Virus record (IMG/VR): IMGVR_UViG_3300009034_000002
Coordinates: 1 to 64,000 of that record
Strand: one strand, 5' to 3'
Origin: a virus
Length of the DNA stretch: 64,000 bases
In this document: positions 10,374 through 64,000 of the stretch, in pieces
Layout: each line of letters opens with the position of its first letter
Position numbering within the stretch: the first letter of the stretch is position 1
The notes under the pieces: model-generated
What the model was told of the DNA's origin: nothing
Seen by the model: the letters and a program-made list of their open reading frames with translations, nothing else
Databases searched by the model: none
Made by a program: the position numbers and the translations under genes

Positions 10374-10583
10374 TTATCTCAACTTTAGTTTAATAAGCCA
10401 GAACGGAACAACAATTGGCCACAGAAGAGGAATCAGTCCGAAGAATACAATTTTAAAACCTAACCTAAGATCGCCCGGACCAAGTGCTCCCCAGAGTATA
10501 TAAAACAATAACAAGCAGCCCAAGGTCACGCAAACTCCGATACCATAGACAATTCCGCCTAAGAACAGTAAAGTTTCAAACAT
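10374..10583 (-). CDS. Small two-pass membrane protein, 69 aa
   Basis: Two hydrophobic segments are clear: about residues 3-33 (LLFLGGIVYGIGVCVTLGCL and on) and 43-64 (FKIVFFGLIPLLWPIVVPF), joined by a short GALGPGDLRLG loop. The C-terminus KLKLR is basic, so it probably faces the cytoplasm. The size and hairpin topology fit holin-like proteins, but nothing else supports that and it lies in the early-type region. Confidence 0.55.
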   Translation of the reverse strand: MFETLLFLGGIVYGIGVCVTLGCLLLFYILWGALGPGDLRLGFKIVFFGLIPLLWPIVVPFWLIKLKLR

Positions 10584-10587
10584 TCCG

Positions 10588-10761
10588 TTAATTCTCCTTT
10601 CGTTTACGACGCGTTCTTTTATCTTTTGAAACAGACCGCCCGGTAGAGAAATCCTTCAATGCACTAAGATCAGCCTGACGATAAAGATAATTACTTGAAT
10701 TTATATCATCCCAAGTCAAATCCGTTGGACCTGGTTTTCTAACTATAAAGAATCTAATCAT
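10588..10761 (-). CDS. Hypothetical small basic protein, 57 aa
   Basis: A 57-residue ORF starting MIRFFIVRKPGPTDLTWDD and ending in a very basic tail (KDKRTRRKRKEN). Its ATG lies within the last codons of the radical SAM gene, with GGAGG about 9 nt upstream. Function unknown; the tail could bind nucleic acid. Confidence 0.5.
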   Translation of the reverse strand: MIRFFIVRKPGPTDLTWDDINSSNYLYRQADLSALKDFSTGRSVSKDKRTRRKRKEN

Positions 10762-15443: not shown

Positions 15444-15695
15444 TTAATCAATACAAACAATACGACGACGTGATTCTTCAGCTTCCCTAACGCTTTCATT
15501 ATGTTTATGATGTTCATACATCCGATTAGTATGATCTTTTTCTTCCTTAAGTAAGTGTTTAAGTGCGCTTATTCTCTGTTCAAGTTGTAAACATCGTTTA
15601 TCTTTTTCTTCCTTAAGTAAGTGTTTAAGTTCTCTTATTCTCTGTTCAAGCTTTAAACAACGTTTACAATTACTGTCTTTCATATCCATTACCAC
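15444..15695 (-). CDS. Short coiled-coil protein with internal duplication
   Basis: An 83-residue protein made almost wholly of coiled coil. Two 22-residue units (KCLKLEQRIRELKHLLKEE-like, then CLQLEQRISALKHLLKEE) follow each other, encoded by a 66-bp tandem DNA repeat. Each unit starts with Cys, which could cross-link partners. Its ATG overlaps the end of the upstream glycosyltransferase gene by 7 nt. A structural or assembly role is possible; nothing more can be said. Confidence 0.55.
   Translation of the reverse strand: MVMDMKDSNCKRCLKLEQRIRELKHLLKEEKDKRCLQLEQRISALKHLLKEEKDHTNRMYEHHKHNESVREAEESRRRIVCID
15535..15666 (+). repeat. 66-bp tandem duplication (2 copies)
   Basis: Two 66-bp copies start at 15535 and 15601 with TCTTTTTCTTCCTTAAGTAA and differ at only a few positions, so this is a recent in-frame duplication of 22 codons within the coiled-coil gene. 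Confidence 0.9.
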
Positions 15696-19921: not shown

Positions 19922-22210
19922 CTATGCTTCCATCAGTCTTGACAATTGATCAATCAACATTTTAAGTGACGTCCTCAGAGGGTGTCCCTCTGGCAACATG
20001 TCAATTGTAACTTCGAAGTATTGTCTACTTAACCTTAAGTAATAAAAGCCCAGCTCTTTGGCGGGGGCGTAAAATTGAGACTCCAAGCCTAATGCTTTCT
20101 TTAATAACTTCTCCGCTTCCGGGTCAAGCGAATTTTGTTCAATTAAATGTACGGCCATGGAAAACCAAGGACGTGGATCCTTGGGAGACTTTTCGGCCAT
20201 TTTCTGATACATGGACCAATAGTGATCAAGTTTCTTCCCAACGTCCACCTTCGGCTTGAGATATCCAAAATGATCCACCACCGTTCTTGATCGATGCACA
20301 TCCAAATTCAACTTATGCGCGCAGTAGTCAACTGTTTCATGAACGTGGCCAGTATATTCCATCTTTTGTGGATTCCTCATGAGCCTAATTGTTTCCGAAA
20401 AGGATGGCTTACTTGCTTGAGGTATCCAATTGTGTACACTGAAACAGAAACAATCTACGTGTGGATTATCCAATTGTCGATTCAATATTCTTAAATCGTG
20501 TATCCGTTCGTCGATATCAAGATGCTGAAACCATGGAGTTGAAACCTCCTTAAGAATTTTATTACGACAAACGTCAAAGCCATCATCAATTGATCCAGTT
20601 AAAATCCTTACATTGTATAATTGTGCTAACTCGATGGAGCCATCTGTACTTCCCGTATCTAACAGAATAACTTCGTCAAAGAAAGCAGACGCAATTTTTA
20701 AATATTCATCAAGGATGCCAACTTCATTTTTCATTACCGATCCAACAGTACATTGAGCATCTTCCGAGAAGTGTGAAATTTTAACATCTGTATCAATCAA
20801 GAACTTGTAATCTTTATCTCCCGCCAACATTGGATCAGGATTTGGATCGAGCTTTGTATAAAAGTCAAATTTCTTCCTCCTCATTTCCTCGGTCAAGTAT
20901 CCAAAATGTTTAATTCTAATTGAACTTTGTGCATGATACTCAATAGGATAATAAGGCACATTTCCTACGTGTATCTTTGTATTCTTGTGACCTCGGTCCT
21001 TCCACCAATCAATTTTACATCCTTTATACACTTTACAAATACGAGGCATATCTGCAAAACCAAAGTGCTTATCGGTTCGATAGTTATTTTCATCATTCCA
21101 CATTGTATAATACTGTAACCTTAAACAAAGCGTCTCCGGCGAAAGTTTCCTTAACATCTGTTCAATATACATTCGGTCAACCTTATCCTCAGGAATTTCA
21201 TCTGCATCTATCGACCATAACCAATTGCAACTATGCTGAATAGTAGCCAAATCAACCAAATCCTGCCGTTGATCAAGTTCATCTTTCCTTTCCTTATCCT
21301 TATAGTAGATAATATTATCATATCTCCGGAGGACCAAGGTGATATCTAATGGAGAATCATCATCCAAGATAAATATCCAATCTCCAATTTGTGACATCTT
21401 TTTAATCGATTTGTCAAACAACTTCAACTCATCTTGGTCTTCAATCCTGACGCGGTACATAACACCTAATACTAAAGGTTCTTCTTTAACCTTCTGTCTC
21501 CAACGTTTTAAAAACGGAATTCTTGAACTACCACCAATCATATCCCACTGTGGTGGCAATGCCACACCGCGCCTAAACACATATCCATCGGAACATACGT
21601 AGGAATGGAAACCAGCAAGGTATAAACGTAAAATGAAATCCACATCCTCAACACCTTCATAAAGTTCTTCAACGAAACCGTTAACAGCATCAAAAGCTGA
21701 CTTCTTAACAAACATACAAAAACTGGTTAAGTAACCCACTTCCCAAAAACGAGGAAAGCCCTTTGAATGTAGCTTGTCCTGAACCGATTGCACATTATCT
21801 GCAGTTGCACCTCTCAAATCAAGTCGTTGCTGACCAGGTACGTTGTTGCACAACGGTCCTATTGCTCCAACGGGAGCACGTAGCTGCAAACCGACGTCTT
21901 CAATAGCCATTTCCAATTGTTCAACAATGCCGCTAGGAAGTACAATATCATCAGCAAGAAACAAAATGTATTCGCCTTGTGCCTCTTTCGCACCGGCATT
22001 ACAAGCTCCAGCCCTATTAAGGTTGGTTGCTTTTATAACCTTACCATCCGGAAGTGTGCTTACAAGTGTTTCAATAACCTTAACATTGTCAGGAGTACAA
22101 TCAGCACAAACTACAATAACCTCCGCGGATGTAGACTTTAAACTCTCCAAACACTGAGTTAAGTGTGAAACGTTGTTACATGTTGGAACTACAATCGACG
22201 TTTGATTCAT
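19922..22210 (-). CDS. Multidomain glycosyltransferase (two or three GT-A domains plus TPR-like tail)
   Basis: A 762-residue fusion. Residues 1-215 are a family 2 domain (SIVVPTCNN, NRAGACNAGA, LFLADDIVLP, EGVEDVDFILRL). Residues about 235-470 form a second GT-A-like domain with WIFILDDDSP and SIDADEIPED. Residues about 485-640 resemble SunS/LgtF-type enzymes (GSVMKNEVGILDEYL, LLDTGSTDGS, HLDIDERI). The last 90 residues are helical and TPR-like. Such fusions build short glycans by successive transfers in the cytoplasm. It is the last large gene of the glycan island. Sugar donors and acceptor are unknown. Confidence 0.85.
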   Translation of the reverse strand: MNQTSIVVPTCNNVSHLTQCLESLKSTSAEVIVVCADCTPDNVKVIETLVSTLPDGKVIKATNLNRAGACNAGAKEAQGEYILFLADDIVLPSGIVEQLEMAIEDVGLQLRAPVGAIGPLCNNVPGQQRLDLRGATADNVQSVQDKLHSKGFPRFWEVGYLTSFCMFVKKSAFDAVNGFVEELYEGVEDVDFILRLYLAGFHSYVCSDGYVFRRGVALPPQWDMIGGSSRIPFLKRWRQKVKEEPLVLGVMYRVRIEDQDELKLFDKSIKKMSQIGDWIFILDDDSPLDITLVLRRYDNIIYYKDKERKDELDQRQDLVDLATIQHSCNWLWSIDADEIPEDKVDRMYIEQMLRKLSPETLCLRLQYYTMWNDENNYRTDKHFGFADMPRICKVYKGCKIDWWKDRGHKNTKIHVGNVPYYPIEYHAQSSIRIKHFGYLTEEMRRKKFDFYTKLDPNPDPMLAGDKDYKFLIDTDVKISHFSEDAQCTVGSVMKNEVGILDEYLKIASAFFDEVILLDTGSTDGSIELAQLYNVRILTGSIDDGFDVCRNKILKEVSTPWFQHLDIDERIHDLRILNRQLDNPHVDCFCFSVHNWIPQASKPSFSETIRLMRNPQKMEYTGHVHETVDYCAHKLNLDVHRSRTVVDHFGYLKPKVDVGKKLDHYWSMYQKMAEKSPKDPRPWFSMAVHLIEQNSLDPEAEKLLKKALGLESQFYAPAKELGFYYLRLSRQYFEVTIDMLPEGHPLRTSLKMLIDQLSRLMEA

Positions 22211-40500: not shown

Positions 40501-43500
40501 TTAAATCATTCTACGTACTAACTTCTTTCCAATATTGTTAGCAACGATTTCACCGTATTTTTTTGATCCGAAATATTGATCAAGTTGTTGTTCATCAAAA
40601 ATATTCACAACAGTTAACTTTGGAGGTTCAACTCCTCTACCTGGCACTATCCCACCTTCTTGGAAGAATTGGCCTAATGGCGATAGCTGCGTTGATACAG
40701 ATTGTAGATTTGATACATAACCACCAAGTTGTCTTGAGATGAATTCAGATACAGGCATTAAGCCCTGATTAAGGGAACTTAGAAACGCTAAGCCATACTT
40801 TCTTACCGCCCGAGACTGTAATACATACTCGCCTTCATGTAATATTGCAGGTACTTCGCCACCTCTTTGGAAACCTTTTGCACCTGTGAGGCCTTTAAAT
40901 AATCCCCCAAAGACACCGCCAACCAAATTCTGAAGTAACTGAAGTATGGATCCTAAGCCTCCGCCCGCGGTTCCACCAAGTGTACCTAAAATGTTGCCAA
41001 AGAAACCTTTTTGTGCACCTTTTGGTTCGCCAATAATGCCCTTAAACAATGAACCAAACAACGTTTCCATGCCACGTAATGGGAACCCAAGCCCCTTACC
41101 AAGCAAGCCTGCTCCACCACCTAACAAAGTTGGCAAGAGCGACACAAGTCCACCAAGTTGAAACCTTGATACATATCCACCTTTAGCGCCTCCAAATAAG
41201 CCTTTTAACCCACCAGCTATTTGTTCAAATCCACCTTTCATGAAGCTACCTAACTGCTGTATTCCGCCAAATGCTTTTGTTATAAGTCCATATAAGAAAT
41301 TAAATGGTCCCATCATTGACGACCATTGTTTCTGTCTCAACCCAAGTGTTGCAGCCTCTTTAAATTCTTCGGGTGCCTTCTGCCATACCGGAGGAGCTTG
41401 TTCACCTCCAGAGGTAGTTCCCGTTCCAAACATGCCGCCAACACCTTTAAGTAATCCCATTGCTGGTCCAACAAATTTCAAAGCGGTCAATACGCCGCCT
41501 ATCCAGAAACTAGGAGAGCCAATTGTCTTGAAAAGATGTACTAACTGTGACGAGCCTGTTTTTGCAATTAAGCCGCCGTGTTCAAGTCCACCAATTGCTT
41601 GTAAGAAGGCTGTAGGCGCACCACCAAGGCCGCCACCACCTTTTCCGCCGCCTAACATTGCACCGAGTCCCCAACCTTTTAAACCGCCTCCAAGTTTTCC
41701 AGCCCAATCTAATAACTTACCCCACCACATAGGTGTAAAACCTTTCTTTGCAAACAACACTCCACCAAGTTTTTCTAATAAACCTTCTGGACCAAGTGCA
41801 CCTCCCGCGAAGAGTGGCAAAAGTGCGCCCAATACGGGTCCACCAAGTTGATACTTTCTGACTGAACCGCCTACTTGATGCCGTAATGGAACCAAGCCCG
41901 AATTTAGCGAATCAAAGAACGACTTACCATACTTACTAACGGCCTGTTTCTTCATAACAAATTCGCCTGCATGTACAATTGCTGGTACCGCACCACCTTT
42001 TTGGAAACCAAATAAACCTTTGACCGCACCAAACAATCCCCCTAATTTGCCTAATCCGCCTAATATTTTACCGCCCAACCATTGTGAAGACAGCCAAGTT
42101 TCCCGACCTAACCATTTGAACCCGCCGGTAATTTCACCGGGTATTCTTTGTAAAAAACCTAACGTTCTTGACCAAAGTCCAGGTCCCGCAGCCCCAACGG
42201 GTGCCACACCAGGAGCCACACCAGGAGCCACACCAGGAACACCGGTCACAACACCAGAGACGCCGGGACGGTACCCAGCAGCAGCAAGCTTCTTTGCAAT
42301 ATTAAGTTTAATATAATCAAGAGTTAGGCCTTGAACTTGCTTCCTTTCCTCTTTCACCGTTGCAACAGTATCTTTCATGAAGTCAAGACCCAGGGCTTCT
42401 AATGCCTTTGTAACAGCCCAACGCGTTGCAATGGTAACCAATGCCTTTACAAATTCAAATTTGAAGCGTTTTATAATATCACGCCATCTTAATTCAAAGT
42501 TTTCACCATACACGATCCACCTAGCAACCGCATCTCCTACTTCTGAGGTTAGATCATTCCACACTTGTGATATCAGTTCACCAGCTTTAACTGCAAAGTC
42601 TTGAACTGCTGCCCAAGCGCCACGGGAATAATCAACCATCCAATCAGATGACGTCTTGACTTTCGCCATTAAGATATCCCAGAAACTGTGCTGTGACTTC
42701 ATGCCCGCTTCAGCTTCTTTAACAATGTTTTCCCACATTTCCTTCTGGACTGAAACAACCGCTTCAGAGTAAGCACGATGATATTGTTGCGACGTTCTAC
42801 TAAGTTTCAGTTCGTGAACCAAATAGTCATCAATTTGTTTCATCCGAGCTTGGAAATACTCTTTGTTATACTTTCCACTTAACCTTAATCTTTCAACTTC
42901 CTCTTCAAGCATCTTCTTCCAAGATTCTCGTAATCTTACATAAACGGCTTCGCCTAATTTCACAAGTCCTTCTACTTCTTCCGCGTGTTCTCTTACTTTT
43001 TCATTAGTACTTGCAAGATCTGCTTGATGTGCCCTCAGCCAAACGCCCGCTGCTTCTAACGAGCCCATTAAATCGTCCTCAGAACCTACAAATCCAATAT
43101 TTGCTTCCGTCAATGCAGCAACAACTTTCCTTGCGCGTTCTTGAGCGTTTCCATAAACTAAAGTTGCTTCGCCAACGTCCACCAACCTTTTATCAACTTC
43201 CAGCAATGTTTCCTCGAGCGCAAACTGTTTCTCCAACCACTCTAATGTAGACAGACCCGTGTCTTTTAAAGTCTTGTTATAGTTCCGTGTTTCTGTTGTC
43301 ACGATTACAAGTCGGTTGATTAATTCTGTAAGTACCTTTTGCTGGGCTTCTGTAAGTTTGTTCCAATCGATATGAGTTTGAATTAACTCTTTTATTCTTT
43401 CCGGCGTGGTTTTAATGGAAATGTTTAAATCATCAATTATCGTCCTCAACGTTGAGTCTGACTTCCTCATTTTGTCTATCCATTCAGTTGCATGCTCCTG

Positions 43501-46500
43501 CGCTGCAACTAAATCCTTAAGTTTATCATCTTCGTCCTTAAGGGCTTTAACCACTTCAATTTTCCAGTCAACCAATTCCATATGTTTCGAAATCAATTCA
43601 TCTAAACCTTTTATATTCTTATCCTGAGAAGCAGTGTAGTTGTCCAAACTGCTACTTAATAAATCGATCCAGAATAGCAGTTTTGCAGCAACTTCACCGC
43701 CTGTTTCCCTTGCCACATTGAGTTTGTCTTGTAACTGAACTTGAGTCATACTTTTTACTTCAAGTTCTGGATATAACTGATGAACTACAAATCGAAGTAC
43801 TCTCAAATACCCTTCCAATGCAGACTTTTGTCTCTTCTTAGCTTCAACATCCTTATCTCCAGCTGCCAAAAGTTTGTCAAAGAACGACGCTTCCTTATCT
43901 TGAATGGCTATCACGGCCTTTGACAGGTTAATTCTTTTGGTATTTGCATCGGTAAAGGCTTTCACATCTGCGTCGGTTGCTGCAACTTTTTCATCAATCA
44001 ACTCGGTATACAAATCGGTGGATCTCTGTTCCCAATAGTCACGAGCCTTAATCATTTCTTCTAACGTGGCCGTTCCCATTGCATATCTTAATTCAAACCT
44101 TTCCATATCAGACAACAGACCTTCAAATGTGTCCCCCGTTCTCTTTGCCATCTTTTCGGCTGCGTCGCCAACATCTCCCGTCCCAGTTTTCACTATATTT
44201 TTAATCCGTGACCAAGAGTCCTTATGAATTGCATGAATGTCAACCAATGTATCAGCAACGCTATCGGCAAATTCCTCATATCGTTTTGCGGTCTCCTTAT
44301 GAGCTTCGCCAATTATTGGAAGCAAACCAATCAACTCGTGATACATTTGCATAAGTTTTGCCATTCCCCACGAAACCAAAGCAATAGCGCCAGCAAACGC
44401 GGTCAAAGCAATGATTGTTGCTTCAATAGCAACGTTTAAAACCCCGACTAATACAAGACCCGCAGTTCCAAAGGCCCGTGAAAGTAAACTTACAAGGTTT
44501 GCGTGTTCTTTTAGCCAATTGTTGACAACAGCCAAAACACGTGAAAATACATTAAAACGTTGTTCCAACTTGGATACTGCTTCTACAAGGAGGTAAATTA
44601 AAATTAGAGGCCAAACTCGTTGTAGGACGAGAAATGCAGTACGTAACGCTCTGGTAGCACCAGCTAAGGTAAACAACGACCCGGCAGCCATAACAGCAGA
44701 CACAGCCATTCGACCTAGCCACATTCCAAAGCCCTTAAGCGCGGCGATTGTAGTTGCCAATATTGCACGCAATATAACCAATGACTCAACAACTAAAACT
44801 TTCAAAAACCGTCCAAGTATAACAACAGCTCCGCCAGTGCCTCGAGCCGTCTTTCCAAGTTTGAACAACAAGAGGTACAAAGGAAACGATACTTTCGACA
44901 CCCACTGCATAGTCCGAGCCAAATACTTGTATACACCAGATAAGTGAGCGGTAGAGGCCAATGAAAGTACCATGGCCTTGTTTAATGCAGTAAGTAATAT
45001 TGTAAGACCCTGAATTGAAATCCGGACTGAAATTACCGTTGCGGCCAATACCAATAACTTCCCTATCCATGTAAGCGTCAAACCAGTTATAAATACCATA
45101 ACGCCAGCTAATGCTGTCACCTGTTGACCTAAGAATAATGTCGCCTGTGCTTTTGTATATAACAGTTTAATAACAGGTTCTAAACCCCGCTTTATATACT
45201 CACCCAGTTGTTTTTGGTAAACGAATGTTAAAACTTGAATTCGCCGTAGCGTACCACCATAGGAATCCATAAATTTATTTACTTGTTCAACACGAGGTCC
45301 CAACACTTCAAATGTAGAACTAAGTCTTGCCATTGTTAACGCTTGTCGTTGCTGAATAGGGTTCATTTCGTCGGTTACTTTTAACAGGCCTTTTGATTCA
45401 AGAGCGTCCTTTCTTACTTCAATACCATAACGTCTTGCTGCACGAACGTTACCGGAAATTGCGGCCTCTAACGATTGTGCTACCTCAGTCACAGAACGAC
45501 CTTCTGCAGCAAACGATAAAATTCCTTCCACAAATTCCATAACTTGTTCTTCAGCAACGCCCATAACGCCCAAGAAGTCAACAATAGGACTAATAGCATG
45601 AATTACTGTAGGTGGTAAAATTCCAAATTGAACAGATAACTCATCCACAGCCTTCGTCCACTGTGCTGTAGTCCAAATAGCTTTTGCGTTAACTGTTCTA
45701 TAAACCTCAATTGCTGCAACTAATAAATATGCGGATCTTTCCATTTCGACAGAAGCATGAACCCACCTGCCCGCAGCCTGGACCAAACCTATTCCAATGG
45801 CTTCAATTAATCTACCAACACCAGCAAATAACCGTGCCCAAACAAGTTCAACAAGGATTGCAGACGTTGTAACTCTTCTCAGTGCTGGAACCATTCCTCT
45901 GTTAAGCGCTTGTGATGCTTGTCCCGTAGCTGCAGTAAATCCTTTCAAACCCGTTGACACTTTTGCCGTTGCAGAACCAGCACCTGCCATTGCTCTTCCA
46001 ACTCTACCGCTAACTCCAGCAAGGTCTTGCATTACGGCAGAACCTGTGATTGTAGCCCGGCGTAAACCTTTAATGCCAACGCCAAATCTATCTAGTATGC
46101 CACCGGCATGGTAGAGGCCACGTGAAAGCATTGAAAAGACGCCAACACCGCCCGATACCGTTCCAAAGAACCTGGCAAAGCCACGTGAAATACTAGCGGT
46201 ACTGGTCAGTACCAAACCAAAGACTTTTGCAAGTTTTAAACCTGTTTCGCCAAGTGTGCCCGTTCCCAACATTAAATCGCGAACCATTAGTTTTGCTGTT
46301 GCCATGACGGGGGCCAGCTTTGCAACAACAGCTGTATATGTCGCAGTATTCCTAATAGCAGATGCAATTCCGACGCCCACACCGGCAAAGGCAATTCCTA
46401 CGGCTTTAACAATACCTATGGTGTTCATCCAAACAGCATTAAGAGCACTTGAAGACCTCGCGGTAGCTCTGAAAGCTCTACCAACCGAAGCGCCGGCGAT

Positions 46501-47013
46501 TCCAATTTCCATAAAAGCAGGTATCAATCTCCGATATAAAATTTGTGATTGCACTACTATCGTACGACCAAGGACGGTAAATGCCTCGCGGAGTTCCGCT
46601 GTTTGTTTATATCCTGATCTTACATGACGACCCATGACAACAATAGCTTTAACAAAATCGGTGCCAACGACTTTACTGACATCCCTAACAGCTACTCCCA
46701 TCAGTCCAACTTGAGTCACGAATGTTTTGGTAAGTTTACCTACTTCGGGTGCTAGTCTTTTTATGGTGGAATGTATATCACGCCAATGTCTAACAACAAG
46801 GGCCAAGCCTGCGGCCGCTGTGGTAACCTTTACAATGGTGCCAATATAGCTTTTTGTAGCTTGTACGGCGCGATCAGTTTCCAATTGTGCTTGTTTAAAC
46901 GTAGCCTGGATCTTCGGCTGCAACTGGGCACATTGAGTCTCAACTTTCTGCAAACCTTGACGGATCTGACTAAGATCCCATTCTACAGAAATACTATAAG
47001 TTTCTAGTGGAAT
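40501..47013 (-). CDS. Tail tape measure protein
   Basis: The large helical and hydrophobic protein sets tail length. Long stretches are predicted helix with membrane-like regions around 600-900, a coiled-coil middle and a glycine-rich C-terminus (GLGGAPTAFL, GGGGLG-like). Two copies of F-Q-[KR]-GG-x-VPAI-x-H-x-GE near the end are typical of tape measure C-termini. The first ATG/TTG in frame is TTG at 46953, but GGAGG lies 9 nt before an in-frame ATT (47011-47013) with no stop between; starting there adds 20 residues (PLETYSISVEWDLSQIRQG). I take that ATT as start, giving 2,170 residues. It follows DUF3326 with a 1-nt gap. Confidence 0.88.
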   Translation of the reverse strand: MPLETYSISVEWDLSQIRQGLQKVETQCAQLQPKIQATFKQAQLETDRAVQATKSYIGTIVKVTTAAAGLALVVRHWRDIHSTIKRLAPEVGKLTKTFVTQVGLMGVAVRDVSKVVGTDFVKAIVVMGRHVRSGYKQTAELREAFTVLGRTIVVQSQILYRRLIPAFMEIGIAGASVGRAFRATARSSSALNAVWMNTIGIVKAVGIAFAGVGVGIASAIRNTATYTAVVAKLAPVMATAKLMVRDLMLGTGTLGETGLKLAKVFGLVLTSTASISRGFARFFGTVSGGVGVFSMLSRGLYHAGGILDRFGVGIKGLRRATITGSAVMQDLAGVSGRVGRAMAGAGSATAKVSTGLKGFTAATGQASQALNRGMVPALRRVTTSAILVELVWARLFAGVGRLIEAIGIGLVQAAGRWVHASVEMERSAYLLVAAIEVYRTVNAKAIWTTAQWTKAVDELSVQFGILPPTVIHAISPIVDFLGVMGVAEEQVMEFVEGILSFAAEGRSVTEVAQSLEAAISGNVRAARRYGIEVRKDALESKGLLKVTDEMNPIQQRQALTMARLSSTFEVLGPRVEQVNKFMDSYGGTLRRIQVLTFVYQKQLGEYIKRGLEPVIKLLYTKAQATLFLGQQVTALAGVMVFITGLTLTWIGKLLVLAATVISVRISIQGLTILLTALNKAMVLSLASTAHLSGVYKYLARTMQWVSKVSFPLYLLLFKLGKTARGTGGAVVILGRFLKVLVVESLVILRAILATTIAALKGFGMWLGRMAVSAVMAAGSLFTLAGATRALRTAFLVLQRVWPLILIYLLVEAVSKLEQRFNVFSRVLAVVNNWLKEHANLVSLLSRAFGTAGLVLVGVLNVAIEATIIALTAFAGAIALVSWGMAKLMQMYHELIGLLPIIGEAHKETAKRYEEFADSVADTLVDIHAIHKDSWSRIKNIVKTGTGDVGDAAEKMAKRTGDTFEGLLSDMERFELRYAMGTATLEEMIKARDYWEQRSTDLYTELIDEKVAATDADVKAFTDANTKRINLSKAVIAIQDKEASFFDKLLAAGDKDVEAKKRQKSALEGYLRVLRFVVHQLYPELEVKSMTQVQLQDKLNVARETGGEVAAKLLFWIDLLSSSLDNYTASQDKNIKGLDELISKHMELVDWKIEVVKALKDEDDKLKDLVAAQEHATEWIDKMRKSDSTLRTIIDDLNISIKTTPERIKELIQTHIDWNKLTEAQQKVLTELINRLVIVTTETRNYNKTLKDTGLSTLEWLEKQFALEETLLEVDKRLVDVGEATLVYGNAQERARKVVAALTEANIGFVGSEDDLMGSLEAAGVWLRAHQADLASTNEKVREHAEEVEGLVKLGEAVYVRLRESWKKMLEEEVERLRLSGKYNKEYFQARMKQIDDYLVHELKLSRTSQQYHRAYSEAVVSVQKEMWENIVKEAEAGMKSQHSFWDILMAKVKTSSDWMVDYSRGAWAAVQDFAVKAGELISQVWNDLTSEVGDAVARWIVYGENFELRWRDIIKRFKFEFVKALVTIATRWAVTKALEALGLDFMKDTVATVKEERKQVQGLTLDYIKLNIAKKLAAAGYRPGVSGVVTGVPGVAPGVAPGVAPVGAAGPGLWSRTLGFLQRIPGEITGGFKWLGRETWLSSQWLGGKILGGLGKLGGLFGAVKGLFGFQKGGAVPAIVHAGEFVMKKQAVSKYGKSFFDSLNSGLVPLRHQVGGSVRKYQLGGPVLGALLPLFAGGALGPEGLLEKLGGVLFAKKGFTPMWWGKLLDWAGKLGGGLKGWGLGAMLGGGKGGGGLGGAPTAFLQAIGGLEHGGLIAKTGSSQLVHLFKTIGSPSFWIGGVLTALKFVGPAMGLLKGVGGMFGTGTTSGGEQAPPVWQKAPEEFKEAATLGLRQKQWSSMMGPFNFLYGLITKAFGGIQQLGSFMKGGFEQIAGGLKGLFGGAKGGYVSRFQLGGLVSLLPTLLGGGAGLLGKGLGFPLRGMETLFGSLFKGIIGEPKGAQKGFFGNILGTLGGTAGGGLGSILQLLQNLVGGVFGGLFKGLTGAKGFQRGGEVPAILHEGEYVLQSRAVRKYGLAFLSSLNQGLMPVSEFISRQLGGYVSNLQSVSTQLSPLGQFFQEGGIVPGRGVEPPKLTVVNIFDEQQLDQYFGSKKYGEIVANNIGKKLVRRMI
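42203..42238 (+). repeat. 12-bp tandem repeat (GCCACACCAGGA) x 3
   Basis: Three perfect 12-bp copies inside the tape measure gene encode a proline-rich G-V-A-P repeat. The unit is in frame, so copy changes would alter linker length only. Confidence 0.85.
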
Positions 47014-47014
47014 A

Positions 47015-48301
47015 TTACTTCACCTCCGTGGTTACACGAGTATAACAAATTGGTCTACGGACCGATTGTGTCGTCACCCCGGCTTTAAGTGCTTGTATTA
47101 CTCCCGCAGCTTCTATGTAAGTATTCACTACAAAGAGTTTACCATCTTTAAATGGCAGATCTTCTAAAGTATTCTTCATTAAATTCTTATTCTCTTTAAC
47201 AGCAATCACCGGAATACCTTGTTCAAGACAAGCCAATGTTGGTAGTCCAACGCATCCATAAGGAATAACTAAACATGAAATATCCTCTACACTGAGACCA
47301 AATTTGTGATTCACTATCCTTGGACTCCGGTATAAACCTCTTAGTATACAATGTAAATAAGTAATTGATGACGATTCCGGAGCCTTACGTGGCTCAACAA
47401 TGCCCACTTCTAATTCCATAACTTCCCTTGATGCCATCATCGGAGCGTGAGCACACGGAATTTGATAAACTTCAGCTATACTATGCGTCAGCATCGCTTC
47501 AATTCCGCCCCATGGGTTAACCATATCATTTTCGTCATTAAAGTATTCCTTGTGAAAATGTTCAGGAACTTGAATGAAAGTTGACAAGCCAACAGCATCA
47601 TATTGAGCTTTATATTTATCTATTATTTTAAATAGTCTTTCCAAATGATTCACGGTACCAATAGCCCTCCCTGATTTAGCATATAACGATGCCATTTCCA
47701 TAATATTTTCCATGTGCACAACATCACAATCTAAACCTAAGGTCACACGCGCTGAAGAAACGGCATTAACTATCTCATTGTTAAAAAAGTTGTCAGGGTG
47801 TTTATCAGCTAGCATAAGAACCCTGTTTGATCTCACTTTCTGTAAACCTAACTGTCCCATTAACAGCCTAGTAATTATACTCCCTTCAACATATAATCCA
47901 TTTTCCGGTAACGTGTTAATATCAGAAGCATTTACTACGTTAGGATGTGTAATTAGTGCATCACACGAACTTGCCATCAACCTCGCAACCGCGTTTCCAT
48001 CTCCACAATGTCCACCAAGTTCTGCCCCAATACCGGTTGGTATCAAAAGGACGGTTGTAAACTTGTCCGTATGCTCATATTCACGTTGACGGAAGTTGAA
48101 AATTGAACCCAAAGCAAGATCGTAGCCACTACCAGCAGGATCAAGAAAGTCTACTTCACAGTTATGCCCTGCCGGGAAAGTTTCAGTAATAACAAAACGG
48201 ATAGGTTGTGCACGAATGGATTCAAGACGCAATGCGTTAACGGACCCATTAAGTTCCAACTTACCCGTTGGTAAAAAGATTTCCTTCGTATATACCCTCA
48301 T
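47015..48301 (-). CDS. DUF3326 family protein
   Basis: A 428-residue protein whose centre carries the DUF3326 signature: LLIPTGIGAELGGHCGDGNA, ALITHPNVVNAS, ENGLYVEGSI and, near the end, GCVGLPTLACLEQGIPVIAVKEN. The family occurs in cyanobacteria, plants and other bacteria; its reaction is unknown. The fold resembles a Rossmann-like phosphorylase or lyase, which is inference. Its ATG overlaps the stop of the SpeD-like gene (ATGA), so the pair is translationally coupled, and the tape measure gene begins 1 nt after it. Metabolic-looking genes at this point in a tail operon are unusual. Confidence 0.85.
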   Translation of the reverse strand: MRVYTKEIFLPTGKLELNGSVNALRLESIRAQPIRFVITETFPAGHNCEVDFLDPAGSGYDLALGSIFNFRQREYEHTDKFTTVLLIPTGIGAELGGHCGDGNAVARLMASSCDALITHPNVVNASDINTLPENGLYVEGSIITRLLMGQLGLQKVRSNRVLMLADKHPDNFFNNEIVNAVSSARVTLGLDCDVVHMENIMEMASLYAKSGRAIGTVNHLERLFKIIDKYKAQYDAVGLSTFIQVPEHFHKEYFNDENDMVNPWGGIEAMLTHSIAEVYQIPCAHAPMMASREVMELEVGIVEPRKAPESSSITYLHCILRGLYRSPRIVNHKFGLSVEDISCLVIPYGCVGLPTLACLEQGIPVIAVKENKNLMKNTLEDLPFKDGKLFVVNTYIEAAGVIQALKAGVTTQSVRRPICYTRVTTEVK

Positions 48302-48669
48302 AGTCTCTCAATTACATGCTTAGAAATCACTTTGCCTCCAAACCATCCAACAGAAAGTTCTGTGGCAACATCTGCATCAAACACGCCGCATGCAAATATA
48401 TTCAAATAAACTCTCTTTAAAGTTTCCAGAGTATGAATTGTAACGTTACTAGTTGTAATAAACTGTACAGCAGTCACACCTCTTAAATGTGGAGGAGAAG
48501 TCTTGTACTCCTCCGGTTGACCATGATAATCCCACCAAACCAATTTTTCCCTTACCATATTTATTTGGTCACAAAGTGCTTTGAAGTAAGCTTTAATGCA
48601 CTTCCTGTTAAAGGTTGCTGGATTACAACCGTGTAAATCAAGAATTAACTCCATGCCGTAAGTTTTCAT
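48298..48669 (-). CDS. S-adenosylmethionine decarboxylase (SpeD/SpeH)-like protein
   Basis: About 123 residues from the ATG at 48669, preceded by GGGGG 6 nt upstream; an open frame continues to 48732. MELILDLHGCNPATF matches the SpeD N-terminus, and SNVTIHTLET with FACGVFDAD matches the core. Ser74, His79 and Cys94 have the same spacing (5 and 15) as the pyruvoyl Ser, His and Cys of SpeD, so self-cleavage is plausible. Residues around the Ser differ (Thr before, Asn after, instead of Glu and His), so the substrate may not be S-adenosylmethionine. SpeD makes decarboxylated SAM for spermidine; phage and bacterial relatives are known with ornithine or arginine specificity. Confidence 0.72.
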   Translation of the reverse strand: MKTYGMELILDLHGCNPATFNRKCIKAYFKALCDQINMVREKLVWWDYHGQPEEYKTSPPHLRGVTAVQFITTSNVTIHTLETLKRVYLNIFACGVFDADVATELSVGWFGGKVISKHVIERL

Positions 48670-48747
48670 CTCGAACCCCCCACTAATTGAGCTCCGTTTC
48701 ATATCTCCTTCCCAACTGTGCAACAGCAACATTTTACTTCCAACATC

Positions 48748-48783
48748 AAATAGAGAGAGGTAATTAAAAACCTCTCTCTATTT
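48748..48783 (-). terminator. Stem-loop after tail chaperone gene
   Basis: AAATAGAGAGAGG and CCTCTCTCTATTT form a perfect 13-bp stem with a 10-nt AT-rich loop. On the minus strand it starts at the stop codon of the chaperone fusion and ends before the SpeD-like gene. Only a weak U-run follows, so it may be a terminator, a processing site or an mRNA-stabilising structure. Confidence 0.65.
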
Positions 48784-49508
48784 GTCTTTTTTCTTTGATA
48801 CGCCAACGGTCTCCATCAAGCCTTTCTTACTAAGTGAATCGAGTGTTCGTTCAACATCGTATTGCTTACGTGGTTGAGTACTTGGTACACCTTTCAACTT
48901 TTGACCATGTAAGCTTGCTTCAAATTCGCGGTCTAGCCGTAACCTTCTTGTAGCAGCTTCCATCAGAAACTTTAATTGATCAAGTGGTAAATCAAGTATC
49001 TGATCAACCGACCAACCGTAATTATTGGCAAAGAAGTCAACTACTTCTGAGAGGCTGGTTTCACCGCGATATTGAACTTGGCCTTTATCAACTCGCCATA
49101 CGTCTTGAAGAAAGGGACTAGAATTTCAATTAAATCCTCCAGTACCACGTTTTCTTCAACCCACTTTTCATCCTTATCCAAAATTAAACCACCAATTTCC
49201 ACAATTGCATCTGGAACCTCAGTTAGAATATCCGGTAGAACGGTAACAACATCTTTCCAGGTGAAAGCATCAATATTGATGTCTTTAACCTCTTTTAAAT
49301 CTTTTAACGTCTGTCCAACTTTCTTGATAATCTGAATTTGCTTCTTCAGTCCAGGCTTCTTAATAGCAATAGTGTCACCGTTGTCAAGTGTAAAGTCGTT
49401 CCCGAAGAAAGCCTGTTGTTCAGCCGACTCCTTAGGAGTTGGTTTAGCAGCTACCTCAGTTTTTACCTCTGGCTTTGGAGTTACTTCCTCCTTTTTCTTT
49501 TCGGTCAT
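48778..49508 (-). CDS. Tail assembly chaperone GT, -1 frameshift product
   Basis: The 155-residue frame at 49041-49508 can shift by -1 at CCCTTTC (49116-49110, read C-CCT-TTC) into a frame open from there to 48778. The fusion has 133 residues before and 110 after the site, 243 in all. The extension reads VQYRGETSLSEVVDFF, NNYGWSVDQILDLPLDQLKF and a basic tail, as in the T domains of gpGT proteins. The -1 frame is closed by TGA four codons upstream of the heptamer, as expected for a programmed site. Lambda-type phages need a fixed G:GT ratio to fold the tape measure. The long gene between this and the tape measure is occupied by the SpeD/DUF3326 pair. Confidence 0.8.
49041..49508 (-). CDS. Tail assembly chaperone G
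   Basis: A 155-residue protein with a lysine/glutamate-rich start (TEKKKEEVTPKPEVK) followed by FTLDNGDTIAIKKPGLKKQIQI and a helical domain (WKDVVTVLPDILTEVPDAIV). It is encoded between the major tail protein and the tape measure, the place of lambda gpG. The stop TAG lies 70 nt after the slippery heptamer. GAGGAGG precedes the ATG. Confidence 0.8.
   Translation of the reverse strand: MTEKKKEEVTPKPEVKTEVAAKPTPKESAEQQAFFGNDFTLDNGDTIAIKKPGLKKQIQIIKKVGQTLKDLKEVKDINIDAFTWKDVVTVLPDILTEVPDAIVEIGGLILDKDEKWVEENVVLEDLIEILVPFFKTYGELIKAKFNIAVKPASQK
49110..49116 (-). promoter_or_regulatory. -1 ribosomal slippery heptamer C-CCT-TTC
   Basis: CCCTTTC on the minus strand, in the zero frame GTC-CCT-TTC, fits X-XXY-YYZ. 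After slipping the tRNAs re-pair on CCC-TTT and the ribosome reads the T extension of the tail chaperone. Confidence 0.72.
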
Positions 49509-56855: not shown

Positions 56856-58553
56856 TTACTTAATCACCTGACAGAGCCTATTAAGCTTCTCAATCGGATT
56901 CATCTTCTGATAGTCAGCATCGTCTTCCAACCTAGGGATTTCCTCTTCCTTTTCAACAAAAACACCTCGTTTAACAATGCCTTCAGAAAGAGTCTTGAGT
57001 AACCCAGCAACTTCATCCCACTGAGTAGTCAATCTTTCGATTTCATCAGCAACCCAGCCTCTTAGAGAATCGATATCCTCTTTCTTTGCTAGATCATCTG
57101 GGATGGCTTCAATTACTTCCTCTTCCTTAGGTTCCTCAGTCTTTTCCTCTTCCTTAGGTTCCTCTACTTTTTCCTCTTCCTTAGGTTCCTCTACTTTTTC
57201 CTCTTCCTTAGGTTCCTCAGCTTCACGTTTCTTTTCAGGAGCAGGATATGGATACTCACCAGCCAAAAGCGCGGACACCTTTTCTTTAATTTTCTGAATT
57301 ATAGATTTTGCCTCTTCAGAGCCAACAACCTTAAGTAACCCATCAACCATTTTGATTATACCCTTTAGCTGTTCCACTGTAGAAGCCTGTCTGTCAACTG
57401 CTTCAATCTTTTCTTCTTCCTTAGGTTCCTCGACTTCCTCGACTGGGATTGCACTAATACCAAGCGCGTCTAGCTTGTCATTAAGAGCTTTCACCTGCTC
57501 AATCAATTCAGATGTTGATAAATCAATTTTCTCCTCCTTGGGTTCCTCGACTTTTTCCTCTTCCTTAGGTTCCTCGACTTTTTCCTCTTCCTTAGGTTCC
57601 TCGACTTTTTCCTCTTCAGGCTCGGTTATCCTCTTTACCTTTTTCCACTCTTTAGCACACTCTGTCATGGATGTACCTTTTCCCATACACTCAGACATAA
57701 ACTTTTGATAATCAGTCTTGGCTTGTGCAATAACTTCGTCAAGTCCTTCAAGAGGTTCTTCGCGCTCGACTTTTTCCTCTTCCTTAGGTTCCTCGACTTT
57801 TTCCTCTTCCTTAGGTTCCTCGCGTTCGATTACTTCCTCTTCTTTAGGCTCCTCAGTCTTTTCCTCTTCCTTCTTAGGTTCCTCTACTTTTTCCTCTTCC
57901 TTAGGTTCCTCAAGGGATTTCGACTTTTGGAGTACCTCCTTGACTTTCTTCACTTCCAAATCACCTCCTTCTTCAATAAGATCAAAATCTTCAACGAGAT
58001 CCAACAATTCCTCTAATTGAGCATCTCGTTCAATCCACCAATCTATAATATCAGCCTGCCAAACACCAGGCACAGACACTAATGAACATTCTAACAGCAA
58101 CAGTTTTGAAGCAACAGTAATCTGTTTGTTATATTCCTTACTCCACTTTGACTTCCTGTCAAGAATTTTACCACGGATTGAAAATTTAGAAATGACTCCT
58201 TCAGTGACCTTCTCCCAAATTTCCATCTCCGCGCATGAAATAAGAGCCTTAACCCACAAGCCTTTTTCTCGAGCCTCAACTTCAATAACTCTGCCAATTG
58301 GTCTATCCGGATTGTGATTGAATAGCAATGTAGGACGATTTAACAGATCTTGAGCAGCTTCCTCCAGAGCCTCTTTCGTAATAATAATATCGTCAACCCC
58401 AAGATCAACAGTTGTCGCGAATCCTGACACAAACCACTTCGGCTTCTTTTCATCATCAGGCTCCGCTTGTCTCTCAATTATATCAATTGGAAAAGTAAAA
58501 CACTTTTCTCCATTACAAATCAGTTCAAAATCGTTTAACTGATCCAAAGACAT
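56856..58553 (-). CDS. Prohead protease fused to acidic repeat/scaffold region
   Basis: A 565-residue protein. Residues 1-190 are an S78/HK97-type prohead protease: KWFVSGFATTVDLGVDD, TLLFNHNPDRPIGRVIE with the catalytic His, and GVISKFSIRGKIL with the catalytic Ser. The remainder is low-complexity, with many 9-residue units EEPKEEEKV, interspersed with coiled coil (SELIEQVKALNDKLDAL) and a C-terminal helix. This arrangement resembles protease-scaffold fusions that hold capsid proteins during assembly and are then cut. AAGGAGG touches the ATG; a TTG two codons later (58547) is at the better distance. Confidence 0.82.
   Translation of the reverse strand: MSLDQLNDFELICNGEKCFTFPIDIIERQAEPDDEKKPKWFVSGFATTVDLGVDDIIITKEALEEAAQDLLNRPTLLFNHNPDRPIGRVIEVEAREKGLWVKALISCAEMEIWEKVTEGVISKFSIRGKILDRKSKWSKEYNKQITVASKLLLLECSLVSVPGVWQADIIDWWIERDAQLEELLDLVEDFDLIEEGGDLEVKKVKEVLQKSKSLEEPKEEEKVEEPKKEEEKTEEPKEEEVIEREEPKEEEKVEEPKEEEKVEREEPLEGLDEVIAQAKTDYQKFMSECMGKGTSMTECAKEWKKVKRITEPEEEKVEEPKEEEKVEEPKEEEKVEEPKEEKIDLSTSELIEQVKALNDKLDALGISAIPVEEVEEPKEEEKIEAVDRQASTVEQLKGIIKMVDGLLKVVGSEEAKSIIQKIKEKVSALLAGEYPYPAPEKKREAEEPKEEEKVEEPKEEEKVEEPKEEEKTEEPKEEEVIEAIPDDLAKKEDIDSLRGWVADEIERLTTQWDEVAGLLKTLSEGIVKRGVFVEKEEEIPRLEDDADYQKMNPIEKLNRLCQVIK
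57097..57915 (+). repeat. 27-bp tandem repeats encoding EEPKEEEKV units
   Basis: The 27-bp unit around CTTTTTCCTCTTCCTTAGGT recurs in three blocks (about 57097-57222, 57410-57626, 57766-57915) inside the protease/scaffold gene. Copies are nearly identical and in frame, so the repeat number can change by slippage or recombination. Confidence 0.85.
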
Positions 58554-60320: not shown

Positions 60321-62660
60321 TTAATCACCAATACATTCTTCAATCATATCGCCTAATTGACATTCTGTAGCAAGAGGACATGTACCTTGATTAAGCAATT
60401 CTCTCTCTGCATCGGTAAGTTTAACTTTATTTTTGATTTTCTGCCCAAGTTTCATGTTGGCAACTACCGGACAACTACCACAATCGAGTTCTAAAGCAGA
60501 AGCATCTTTCAATTCGGCATCTCCATCCAGCATATCATCAACCACTAACATATTAGCAATTGGGCAACCTGTCATTTTATCCTTTTTCTTGTGTGCACCT
60601 GCTTTCTTAAAATCAGGAACAAAATCATATTCCTGACTGATTTCGTCCACGACAGGTGTAGAACCGGGTTCGAATGTACACTCCAACTTAAGCCAACGTC
60701 CAATTCGTCTCACATCAACGGGGAAAGTTTCGTGGTAACCGTCTTTTGGTGTCCACTGTACTTTATCAAAGTTCTTCTGTAATTGCGTTGTCTTAACTCT
60801 AACCTTGAGATTGGAATTGCCTCGTTCCGTACCAGTCACATTTAGAGTACCCCAACGAGTATATGGTTTATCCGCTTTAAATTCAACGGTCCAAGTACCG
60901 GTATTGAAGTTACCTTCTTCAGTAATTGGCTGATAGTTTGCACCTAAGCCGTAATGCCATCCGCCAAAGCTTAAACCAGCGCCCTGAATCCCAGCACCAG
61001 CTAGTTGGTATCTAGATACATTTAAGTCGCCAATGTACAACCACGAAGTACCATCAAATTCCTCCGTCCAATAATGATACTTCGCAAGATATTCATATCC
61101 TCCGAAAGCTAGACCTGCATTTTGAGTGCCACAACCGGCTAAGTACGCACGAGCAGCAATTAAATTACCTCCAGCCGACCAAGAAGTTCCGTCATACGTC
61201 TCCGTAGTATTCAAAATTTGAATAGCGATGTCGTCCCAACCACCAAAGCTTAAGCCTGCATTCTGAGTTCCGCAACCAGCTAGCCCATATCGAAATTTAT
61301 TAAGGTTGTTGCTAGCAGTCCATACCGCACCATCATATTCTTCAGTGAAACCAACACGTGCGGATACATAACCACCAAAGCTCAAACCTGCATTTTGTAC
61401 ACCGCAACCCGCGAGGGTCCAACGAGCTGTATTAAGATTGCCCCCTAAAGACCAATTTGTACCATCATATTCTTCTGCGGGCTGGGCCGGCGCACCAATA
61501 GAATATCCGCCAAAAGCCAAGCCTGCATTCTGAGTTCCGCAACCAGCACAAGCTTCCCGAGCAACGTTTAAATTCCCGCCAGGCAACCAACCTGTTCCGT
61601 CATACTCTTCAGTTGTTACGGAACGACCAGTACTTTCGACGCCACCAAAACTCAAACCTGCATTTTGTAGGCCACAGCCAGCAAGGCCTCGACGAGCTGT
61701 ATTAAGGTTGCCTCCTAAAGTCCAAACGTGCATTCCTCTTAAACTACCTGCTAAAATTGGTTCCAGACCGGTATGAGGAGCATATTCTTCAGTTGTTCCT
61801 AAAATATTCAGTGTCGCATCATCGTGACCACCAAAGGATAAACCAGCTTGTGTGGTACCGCACCCGGCTAAAGATGAACGTGCAACATTGAGATTGACCG
61901 AGCTGGTCCAACTTGCGCCGTCATATTCCTCCGTGGTTCCCATCGGGCCATAACCACCAAAGGAGAGACCGGCATTTTGTGTGCCACAGCCAGCTAATCT
62001 GTTTCGAGCAGTATTCAAACTTCCACCAAGAGACCAGGTTGCGCCATCGTATTCTTCCGTTGTTGCCAACCATGATCCACCAAAACTAAGCCCCGCGTTC
62101 TGACTACCGCAACCGGCTAATGAGTCACGTGGTTGATTTAGGCTGCCACCAACGGTCCAAGTTGCGCCGTTATATTCCTCCGTGGCTCCCGACAAAGTGG
62201 CGCCATCCCAACCGCCAAAGGAAAGACCTGCACTTTGAGTTCCAGCTCCAGCTAGATATCCACGGCCAGTATTGAGATTACCACCTAGTGACCATACTGA
62301 GCCGTCGTATTCCTCGGATAATGGGGAAATGCCGTTTGTATATCCGCCAAAGGAAAGACCAGCGACTTGGGTGCCACAACCGGCTAGAAACCTTTTTTTG
62401 TTGTTTAAGTTACCGCCTACAGCCCAAGAAGCTCCATTATATTCTTCCGTGTCCTTCACAAGAGTATATGCTGGGTATTCTCCACCAAAGGAGAGACCGG
62501 CATTTTGTGTGCCACATCCTGCGAGCCACTTACGCGCTTTATTCAAATTGCCACCAAGTGTCCAACCACCAACTATGTAACCAGTAGCTTTAAAATCAAG
62601 GTTATTTAAAACACCCTCATTAAAGTCTTCAATTTCTGTCCAAGTTTTTGTTTGAATCAT
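60321..62660 (-). CDS. Twelve-repeat Kelch-like protein with C-terminal CP...LG repeats
   Basis: A 779-residue protein. Twelve units of about 42-55 residues each contain N-L-N-x-x-R, LAGCGTQNAGLSFGG and E-E-Y-D-G-x-x-W, a Kelch/galactose-oxidase-like pattern. A linker (about 20 residues) after repeat 6 suggests two six-bladed propellers. Then comes a beta domain of about 90 residues (PYTRWGTLNVTGTERG and on) and two to three copies of the Cys repeat found in the 54330-54629 protein. It could be a receptor- or glycan-binding virion protein, but it might also be cytoplasmic; no signal peptide is present. Confidence 0.7.
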   Translation of the reverse strand: MIQTKTWTEIEDFNEGVLNNLDFKATGYIVGGWTLGGNLNKARKWLAGCGTQNAGLSFGGEYPAYTLVKDTEEYNGASWAVGGNLNNKKRFLAGCGTQVAGLSFGGYTNGISPLSEEYDGSVWSLGGNLNTGRGYLAGAGTQSAGLSFGGWDGATLSGATEEYNGATWTVGGSLNQPRDSLAGCGSQNAGLSFGGSWLATTEEYDGATWSLGGSLNTARNRLAGCGTQNAGLSFGGYGPMGTTEEYDGASWTSSVNLNVARSSLAGCGTTQAGLSFGGHDDATLNILGTTEEYAPHTGLEPILAGSLRGMHVWTLGGNLNTARRGLAGCGLQNAGLSFGGVESTGRSVTTEEYDGTGWLPGGNLNVAREACAGCGTQNAGLAFGGYSIGAPAQPAEEYDGTNWSLGGNLNTARWTLAGCGVQNAGLSFGGYVSARVGFTEEYDGAVWTASNNLNKFRYGLAGCGTQNAGLSFGGWDDIAIQILNTTETYDGTSWSAGGNLIAARAYLAGCGTQNAGLAFGGYEYLAKYHYWTEEFDGTSWLYIGDLNVSRYQLAGAGIQGAGLSFGGWHYGLGANYQPITEEGNFNTGTWTVEFKADKPYTRWGTLNVTGTERGNSNLKVRVKTTQLQKNFDKVQWTPKDGYHETFPVDVRRIGRWLKLECTFEPGSTPVVDEISQEYDFVPDFKKAGAHKKKDKMTGCPIANMLVVDDMLDGDAELKDASALELDCGSCPVVANMKLGQKIKNKVKLTDAERELLNQGTCPLATECQLGDMIEECIGD

Positions 62661-63322: not shown

Positions 63323-64000
63323 TTATTTCAAACGTTTACACTTTTCCCTTTGTCCAGACCAACGAATATCTGGAACAAGTACATACCTCTTTTCTTCGAT
63401 CCGATCTTTATATTTAATTAAATCCTTAAACATTCTTTTTAATTCATTTCTTATATCATGACTTGGCTTATAACCAAGGTCAAGTAAATGTTGATGATCG
63501 GGATTATAATAATGTTCTTCAAGTTCAATTCTTGGATTTTCAATATTCCAAATCTTACAATCTAAATCAAACTTGTTACCAACTTCTTTAACAATTTCAG
63601 CCAGTTGGTAAATTGAATATAATTCCTCAAATTGATTAAATGTTCTATATTCGCCCTTCTTTGGAGGATTTTCAAGCGCAAGGGTTAAACATTGCATTGA
63701 ATCACGTAGAGGTAAGAAGCCACGCGTCTGATGACCTTTGCCATAAGGTGTTAATTCATGCCCGATCACGGCCTGGGCAACAAATCTATTAATAGCTGTT
63801 CCGAAGCATTGGTCCACGTCAAATCGTGTTAGTAGCCGTTCATCATCTCCCATTTCATCAATTCGTGTTCCATATACTACACCTTGCATAATATCTGTAG
63901 ATCGTAGATTCCAAAATTTACAAGCCATTATGATATTGTGGGTATCATGAACTTTAGTCTGATGGTACCAACTCCCAGCTTGTCTCGGAAAGATAAGTGT
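63323..64000 (-). CDS. sqdB: UDP-sulfoquinovose synthase (SQD1/SqdB-like), C-terminal part, cut by edge
   Basis: The 225 visible residues match the SQD1 family. The first visible part contains the catalytic YHQTK (Y-x-x-x-K), then THNIIMACKFWNLRSTDI, QGVVYGT, LTRFDVDQCFGTAINRF, TPYGKGHQTRGF, EYRTFNQFEE, NPRIELEEHYYN and a helical C-terminus with DRIEEKRYVLVP. The N-terminal NAD-binding part lies beyond 64000. The enzyme makes UDP-6-sulfoquinovose from UDP-glucose and sulfite, the donor of sulfolipid headgroups and of rare bacterial glycans. The last conserved blocks match strongly. Its presence in a phage and proximity to a virion gene cluster are unusual. I set the limit at the edge because the frame is open through it. 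Confidence 0.9.
   Translation of the reverse strand, partial: TLIFPRQAGSWYHQTKVHDTHNIIMACKFWNLRSTDIMQGVVYGTRIDEMGDDERLLTRFDVDQCFGTAINRFVAQAVIGHELTPYGKGHQTRGFLPLRDSMQCLTLALENPPKKGEYRTFNQFEELYSIYQLAEIVKEVGNKFDLDCKIWNIENPRIELEEHYYNPDHQHLLDLGYKPSHDIRNELKRMFKDLIKYKDRIEEKRYVLVPDIRWSGQREKCKRLK

Follow-up and report, generated by a model that had tools for sequence, protein, structure and literature searches.

A SpeD-like gene for a probable pyruvoyl decarboxylase and a DUF3326 gene form a recurrent pair in uncultivated phages

Why a gene for a relative of the pyruvoyl decarboxylases and a gene for a DUF3326 protein should adjoin each other among phage tail genes, and what their products might do together, is the question raised by a stretch of DNA of 64,000 nucleotides (the window), which is part of the virus record IMGVR_UViG_3300009034_000002 of 173,109 bases. 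A longer record of 241,415 bases represents the same phage, with 99.998% identity across the 118.8 kb aligned between the parts compared. The two genes share the minus strand. The SpeD-like open frame covers 48298-48732, and Met22 of this frame, which has a G-rich stretch upstream, is the likely start, giving a 123-residue product (48298-48669) that is assigned as a SpeD-family (AdoMet_dc) pyruvoyl decarboxylase proenzyme from profile matches and conserved catalytic residues. The DUF3326 gene (47015-48301) encodes 428 residues, comprising an N-terminal extension (1-81) and the PF11805 region (82-414), and it begins inside the stop of the SpeD-like gene through an ATGA overlap at 48298-48301, minus strand, exactly where a preliminary description of this DNA had placed it.

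The same description located the pair between a tail chaperone and the tape measure, and this arrangement is borne out, with a weak match on the chaperone side. A tail tape-measure protein of 2150 residues (40501-46953, minus; PHROG matches, best 1.8e-8) is encoded downstream, and a tail-assembly-chaperone-like protein (49041-49508, minus; PHROG 1442, E 0.012) upstream, with a 61-residue frame without family match (48778-48963, minus) between the chaperone and SpeD. Farther upstream are matches to neck, head-tail adaptor, major head and head-protease proteins. The head maturation protease (56856-58553) bears a long Glu/Lys/Pro-rich repeat insert, and a 779-residue protein (60321-62660) with repeats around AGCGTQNAGLSFGG has no Pfam match at E 0.001. 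The location of the pair beside structural genes, in the window and in some other phages, suggests late expression; the tail-operon location is not general, and the pair is found elsewhere in other phages.

The SpeD-like protein is, on its profile scores, a true member of the AdoMet_dc family (PF02675, E 1.1e-12, 48.6 bits, above the curated cut-off of 25), and it also matches PHROG 3125 (E 1.7e-14). In a 48-row profile match, Ser74, His79 and Cys94 of the window protein align with Ser63, His68 and Cys83 of the Thermotoga AdoMet decarboxylase (AdoMetDC), for which roles in self-processing and catalysis are given in the available text of PMC10407285. All three are kept in 57/57 SpeD homologues by column counts, and the SpeD spacing noticed from the window alone is right. 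The change that had been noticed next to the Ser is also real, the residue preceding Ser74 being Thr in place of the Glu of Thermotoga. This Thr is found in 41 of 49 DUF3326-linked SpeDs vs 18 of 19 DUF3326-less ones (non-identical sequences) and is therefore not peculiar to the linked proteins. Among the 57 homologues, this Thr (T73) is kept in 50 and Q69 in 56. When the single SpeD-like protein was compared with PDB by phmmer, the best match was to immunoglobulin Fc chains (E 0.004) and AdoMetDC was absent from the best 60 of 171 matches; the Fc hit was taken as a chance short-stretch match, because the 48-row SpeD profile finds AdoMetDC instead. In one locus (L083:4122-5975), a SpeD domain lies within a 617-residue frame directly upstream of DUF3326, a possible fusion.

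Membership in AdoMet_dc would agree with an ordinary AdoMetDC that feeds a host spermidine synthase, with DUF3326 as a helper, and the diverged SpeD of phage phiN3 is a proven true AdoMetDC according to the available text of PMC9992855; we nevertheless regard this account as quite unlikely. The Trp-Pro-Glu that follows the His in Thermotoga is replaced, and three residues after the His, where Thermotoga has Pro, 35 of the 46 rows (of 48) that fit strict spacing carry Asp and two carry Pro. The score of 28.2 bits against the AdoMetDC equivalog TIGR03330 (cut-off 75.65) is a weak argument, since phiN3 SpeD likewise falls below (28.9). According to the available text of PMC10407285, four central-region residues (Gln, Thr, Phe and Tyr) mark SpeD proteins that decarboxylate ornithine, and true AdoMetDC has a conserved Pro; Q69 and T73 may be the first two of the four, the only ones matched, a tentative placement given that this text states no positions. 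The phiN3 protein has the Gln, and has neither Trp-Pro-Glu after the His nor Pro at the Thermotoga place, so an AdoMet substrate is compatible with the window protein as far as sequence goes. Taken together, the residue pattern favours a loss of AdoMet activity in this family, and some SpeD proteins of phages have been described as active on ornithine or arginine (PMC9992855, available text).

As for the second gene, the DUF3326 protein gives a nearly full-length match to PF11805 (E 2.2e-84, 283.8 bits, cut-off 25), with residues 82-414 covering profile positions 1-336 of 337. The N-terminal extension (residues 1-81 in the window protein) has no family match and is shared by 17 full-length rows and one cut row (L076) out of 65, the short form being without it. 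AlphaFold (AF2) models of the long form (pLDDT 91.4, pTM 0.92) and of the short form (pLDDT 94.4, pTM 0.90) suggest two Rossmann-like domains and an enzyme-like protein. Fifty alignment columns are at least 93% identical, 22 of them polar with many Asn, Asp and Glu and one His, a pattern as in an active site, to judge from the alignment; the window protein deviates at four conserved positions (Thr130, Met197, Arg321 and Thr394). PDB sequence searches with a single DUF3326 protein and with a profile found nothing (best E 0.46 and 0.58), NCBIfam gave no match, and neither model reached E 0.001 against PDB in Foldseek, nor did the long-form model against a viral structure library. In VIA, the models matched lumazine synthases and one half of the GT-B glycosyltransferase fold best, with Z of at most 6.4 and 8.5; in the GT-B rows only one half superposes (132 residues at rmsd 3.3 in one model, 123 residues at rmsd 3.6 in the other), at Z near background.

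Transcarbamylases (aspartate, ornithine, N-succinylornithine and putrescine) made up 40 of the best 50 Foldseek matches of the short-form model (E 0.003-0.015); attractive in view of the presumed ornithine substrate, they were nevertheless rejected, on TM-scores of 0.14-0.24 and rmsd of 13-22, with none among the best 50 VIA matches. Carbamoyltransferases (ATCase/OTCase/PTCase) carry the carbamoyl-phosphate motifs STRTR, HPxQ and HCLP, and each of these patterns was found in 0 of 65 DUF3326 sequences, which speaks against membership in that group. A Nitrospinota match (L003), considered as a cellular relative, says little: the gene is partial, a stop codon close to where the contig ends breaks its frame, and DUF3326 occurs in 1/77 Nitrospinota genomes. 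In the literature search, DUF3326 was named in a review of cyanobacterial ferredoxins, where the passage mentions a fed3-DUF650-DUF3326 cluster without a function (PMC4284462), and in a potato expression study, whose passage likewise gives none; DUF3326 accessions appeared in no paper found.

The preliminary description had called for a survey of DUF3326 neighbours, and had allowed that the two genes might occur together nowhere else or that the SpeD-like protein might prove unrelated to SpeD; instead, the genes co-occur in many phage contigs and the protein belongs to the family. Using two DUF3326 peptide patterns only, derived from two SpeD-linked proteins (those of the window and L022), 73 DUF3326 loci were collected from IMG/VR. 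A SpeD homologue lies within 1.8 kb in 57/73, a count reached in the first round with an HMM built from the window and L022 SpeD proteins, and unchanged when the HMM had been re-trained three times on the loci. SpeD precedes DUF3326 in 56 of the 57 pairs and comes second in one (L053). The spacing is -4 to +7 bases in 46/56 SpeD-first pairs, with DUF3326 taken to begin at the possible start closest to the end of SpeD, a choice biased towards short gaps, and 17/56, the window counted, have the 4-base overlap. Wider gaps occur in the other 10, several of which hold an intervening gene such as HNH, GIY-YIG, GNAT or DHO_dh-like. Some loci are near-copies, and for a comparison of distances 50 pairs were kept, near-copies and one fragment being dropped; SpeD and DUF3326 distances co-vary modestly (Mantel r 0.23, with 16/2000 shuffles as high).

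Neighbours beyond SpeD vary widely among the DUF3326 loci. In a scan of 73 of the 86 listed flanking proteins, few matched phage families, the commonest in Pfam being terminase (4), portal families (3 and 2), and tail and MuF (2 each). Such differing surroundings mean that the pair behaves as a cassette common to many phages, beside structural genes in some of them. The varying contexts and the HNH, GIY-YIG and GNAT genes that enter between the two could also be read as a sign of two unrelated genes hitchhiking as neutral cargo without a shared function, which we consider very improbable in view of the frequency of co-occurrence, the repeated 4-base overlaps and the second family of pyruvoyl decarboxylases found in SpeD-less loci (below). 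The pairing is not chance, and the occurrence of the same adjoining genes in many uncultivated phages makes the pair look like a real, undescribed metabolic unit and not an accident of one genome. Among 50,697 GenBank phage records, tblastn at E 0.001 matched the window SpeD in 10 and a Microcystis phage SpeD in 29, which are lower bounds for SpeD in phages; with two queries, DUF3326 was not found in these records, nor in 72,556 plasmid records. The cassette may have escaped notice for want of DUF3326 matches in that GenBank phage set.

The reverse relation is looser. A first SpeD scan gave DUF3326 in 13/17 loci, one of them a fragment, and 4/17 without it. In a wider profile search, with 80 loci kept of 94 confirmed, DUF3326 was present in 55/80, while 25/80 were without it within the DNA searched, four of these 25 ending at most 500 bases from SpeD; both fractions are biased upward, as both SpeD profiles were built from DUF3326-linked SpeD proteins. 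The decarboxylase is thus able to occur alone, which DUF3326 rarely does.

The 16/73 DUF3326 loci without a close SpeD show what may take its place. In nine of the 16, a gene of the phosphatidylserine-decarboxylase (PSD) family (PF02666) adjoins DUF3326, vs 0/32 SpeD-bearing records searched (of 57) that contain this family (Fisher p 7e-6; 4e-6 without near-copies). The value becomes 1.3e-4 if L033 is counted as SpeD-bearing: its record (G085) encodes at 10382-10603, on the other strand and 2.4 kb from DUF3326, a SpeD of a second subtype, whose site reads Thr-Ser-His, the adjoining partner of this DUF3326 being PSD. Eight of the nine PSD-type partners belong to a single subfamily, the exception being that of L027, which is of a different type. 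The C-terminal Gly-Ser site is kept in all eight phage PSD-family sequences aligned, and the three partners tested score far below the PSD equivalog cut-offs, so their substrate may differ from phosphatidylserine. A search with a PSD profile gave DUF3326 in 8/11 loci. Genes of the DUF3326-linked PSD subfamily were also seen without DUF3326 in the DNA searched (L198 and L199:4001-4801; L204:3872-4795); in L198, the gene is followed on the opposite strand by an N-formylglutamate-amidohydrolase-like gene.

SpeD and PSD have unrelated folds and a common pyruvoyl chemistry. The simplest account of the swap is that DUF3326 depends on a decarboxylation, and we propose that it needs the decarboxylated product and not SpeD itself, which would let a PSD-family enzyme stand in. 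The swap also weighs against the AdoMetDC account, as PSD-family enzymes are not known to use AdoMet. In a quick, unrooted DUF3326 tree, the window falls in an 18-row group (SH-aLRT 99) whose partners are PSD in nine, SpeD in six, OCD in two and none in one, so partners have changed within one DUF3326 lineage. Here OCD denotes a relative of ornithine cyclodeaminase/alanine dehydrogenase, not a decarboxylase, which lies upstream of DUF3326 in the same gene order in L024, L076 and L093, on contigs that are fragments of 10.6, 6.8 and 5.5 kb. L087 ends at a contig edge, its near-copies L086 and L088 having SpeD, and the whole records of L039, L057 and L092 are without SpeD, PSD and OCD families.

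These last loci bear on the order of the two reactions. DUF3326 might act first, releasing or making an amino acid (ornithine or a relative) which the partner enzyme consumes; every partner type, the OCD relatives included, would then use an alpha-amino acid or a compound containing one, and DUF3326 is partnerless in 3/73 loci (L039, L057 and L092) plus the cut L087, while SpeD stands alone in 25/80. We judge this order unlikely, as OCD is perhaps an extra gene rather than a substitute, given that its contigs are fragments and that the OCD-family gene of the window phage lies far from the pair, and as DUF3326 showed no recognisable motif of a hydrolase or a transferase.

The preferred reading is a mobile two-enzyme cassette whose decarboxylase would supply DUF3326 with an amine, perhaps putrescine made from ornithine; we advance it tentatively, at somewhat less than an even chance. 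The SpeD-like proenzyme would cleave itself before Ser74, converting the Ser into the pyruvoyl group, as its conserved catalytic residues imply. Its predicted substrate is a basic amino acid, most likely L-ornithine (yielding putrescine) and secondarily L-arginine (yielding agmatine). DUF3326 would use the resulting amine or act at the same small-molecule node, and the overlapping reading frames may keep the two products in step. An amine made late might, speculatively, serve in condensing packaged DNA. In a wider version, DUF3326, which cyanobacteria and plants have as well, would be a novel amine-metabolic enzyme that needs an amino acid just decarboxylated for its reaction, and phages would pair it with any available pyruvoyl decarboxylase, SpeD- or PSD-type, to give an undescribed amine or derivative; this is possible, with the chances clearly against it.

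Other genes of the same phages give a polyamine or arginine/ornithine role modest circumstantial support along with some results against it, and such a role is, as in the preliminary description, one that we infer. A PSD gene and an agmatinase-like gene (163 bits, cut-off 174) lie near DUF3326 in L037. The phage of the window also encodes an OCD-family protein (G000 168975-169964, L012:8975-9964, minus), though one that comes closest to archaeal alanine dehydrogenase (368 bits against a cut-off of 409). Both are circumstantial support for an amine role. On the other hand, among 48 DUF3326-bearing records (of the 73 loci), many of them fragments, the spermidine-synthase family was found in one, by a weak match, the arginase family in one and the deoxyhypusine/homospermidine synthase family in none. 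A link of spermidine synthase to the pair was thus tried and proved weak. The window phage also encodes a QueD-type 6-carboxytetrahydropterin synthase (G000 165026-165436, L012:5026-5436, minus; TIGR03367 91.7 bits, cut-off 89.25).

Sugar-related genes of this phage enter into another proposal, in which the product is not a free polyamine: the substrate of the decarboxylase would be an amino acid linked to a sugar, nucleotide, lipid or DNA base, a conjugate that DUF3326 makes or attaches. The substrate of classical PSD is a large conjugate, a domain of DUF3326 is similar to the nucleotide-sugar half of GT-B at the Z values given above, close to what models with no clear match attain, and the window phage carries UDP-sulfoquinovose synthase and glycosyltransferase genes. 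We find the proposal improbable, however, since the GT-B resemblance is about at the stated background level of the tool and, SpeD aside, any gene cluster next to the pair is shared by a few loci at most. The UDP-sulfoquinovose synthase gene (window 63323-64000, running to 64507 of the record, L007:3323-4507, minus) scores 557.8 bits against NF041015 (cut-off 575); the frame just upstream of it looks by eye like UDP-glucose dehydrogenase, and the glycosyltransferase-family genes are at 19922-22210 and 15689-16924.

Co-occurrence, adjacency, conservation of catalytic residues and partner replacement are established. The idea of an undescribed two-enzyme module is strengthened by the co-occurrence and the replacement of partners, and is narrowed on the SpeD side, which is less new, as this half belongs to a kind already published (PMC9992855 and PMC10407285, available text). 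The DUF3326 partnership and the decarboxylase-family swap appear new and were not found described in the literature searched. For the DUF3326 proteins of cyanobacteria and potato, the passages of the papers found name no reaction, and the frequent pairing with pyruvoyl decarboxylases, together with the family swap, offers a concrete handle on the role of DUF3326. Phage amine metabolism would be extended thereby from single genes to a transferable two-enzyme unit.

Among known systems, SpeDC and SpeDA are SpeD homologues of bacteria, archaea and phages that decarboxylate L-ornithine or L-arginine (PMC10407285 and PMC9992855, available text). The window SpeD resembles them in its class 1b size, in its Ser/His/Cys spacing, tentatively in the Gln and Thr of its central motif, and in occurring in phages that mostly lack a spermidine synthase gene, but their neighbours, as described in these texts, include speB, speY, speE and hss, with DUF3326 not among them. 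With AdoMet decarboxylases of class 1b (Thermotoga, Bacillus and phage phiN3), it shares family and catalytic triad, while other residues take the place of the Glu that precedes the Ser and of the Trp-Pro-Glu that follows the His in the Thermotoga enzyme; it lies below the equivalog cut-off, as phiN3 does. The DUF3326-linked phage PSD resembles the PSD family (PF02666) in being of the pyruvoyl type with a C-terminal Gly-Ser site; unlike classical PSD, its gene adjoins DUF3326 where SpeD is missing, and the three proteins tested are below the equivalog cut-offs. Finally, the window DUF3326 is like its cyanobacterial and plant counterparts in matching PF11805 over its full length, whereas, in comparison with the cyanobacterial fed3-DUF650-DUF3326 cluster as presented in the available passage of PMC4284462, the partner observed in the phage contigs of this survey is a decarboxylase-family gene.
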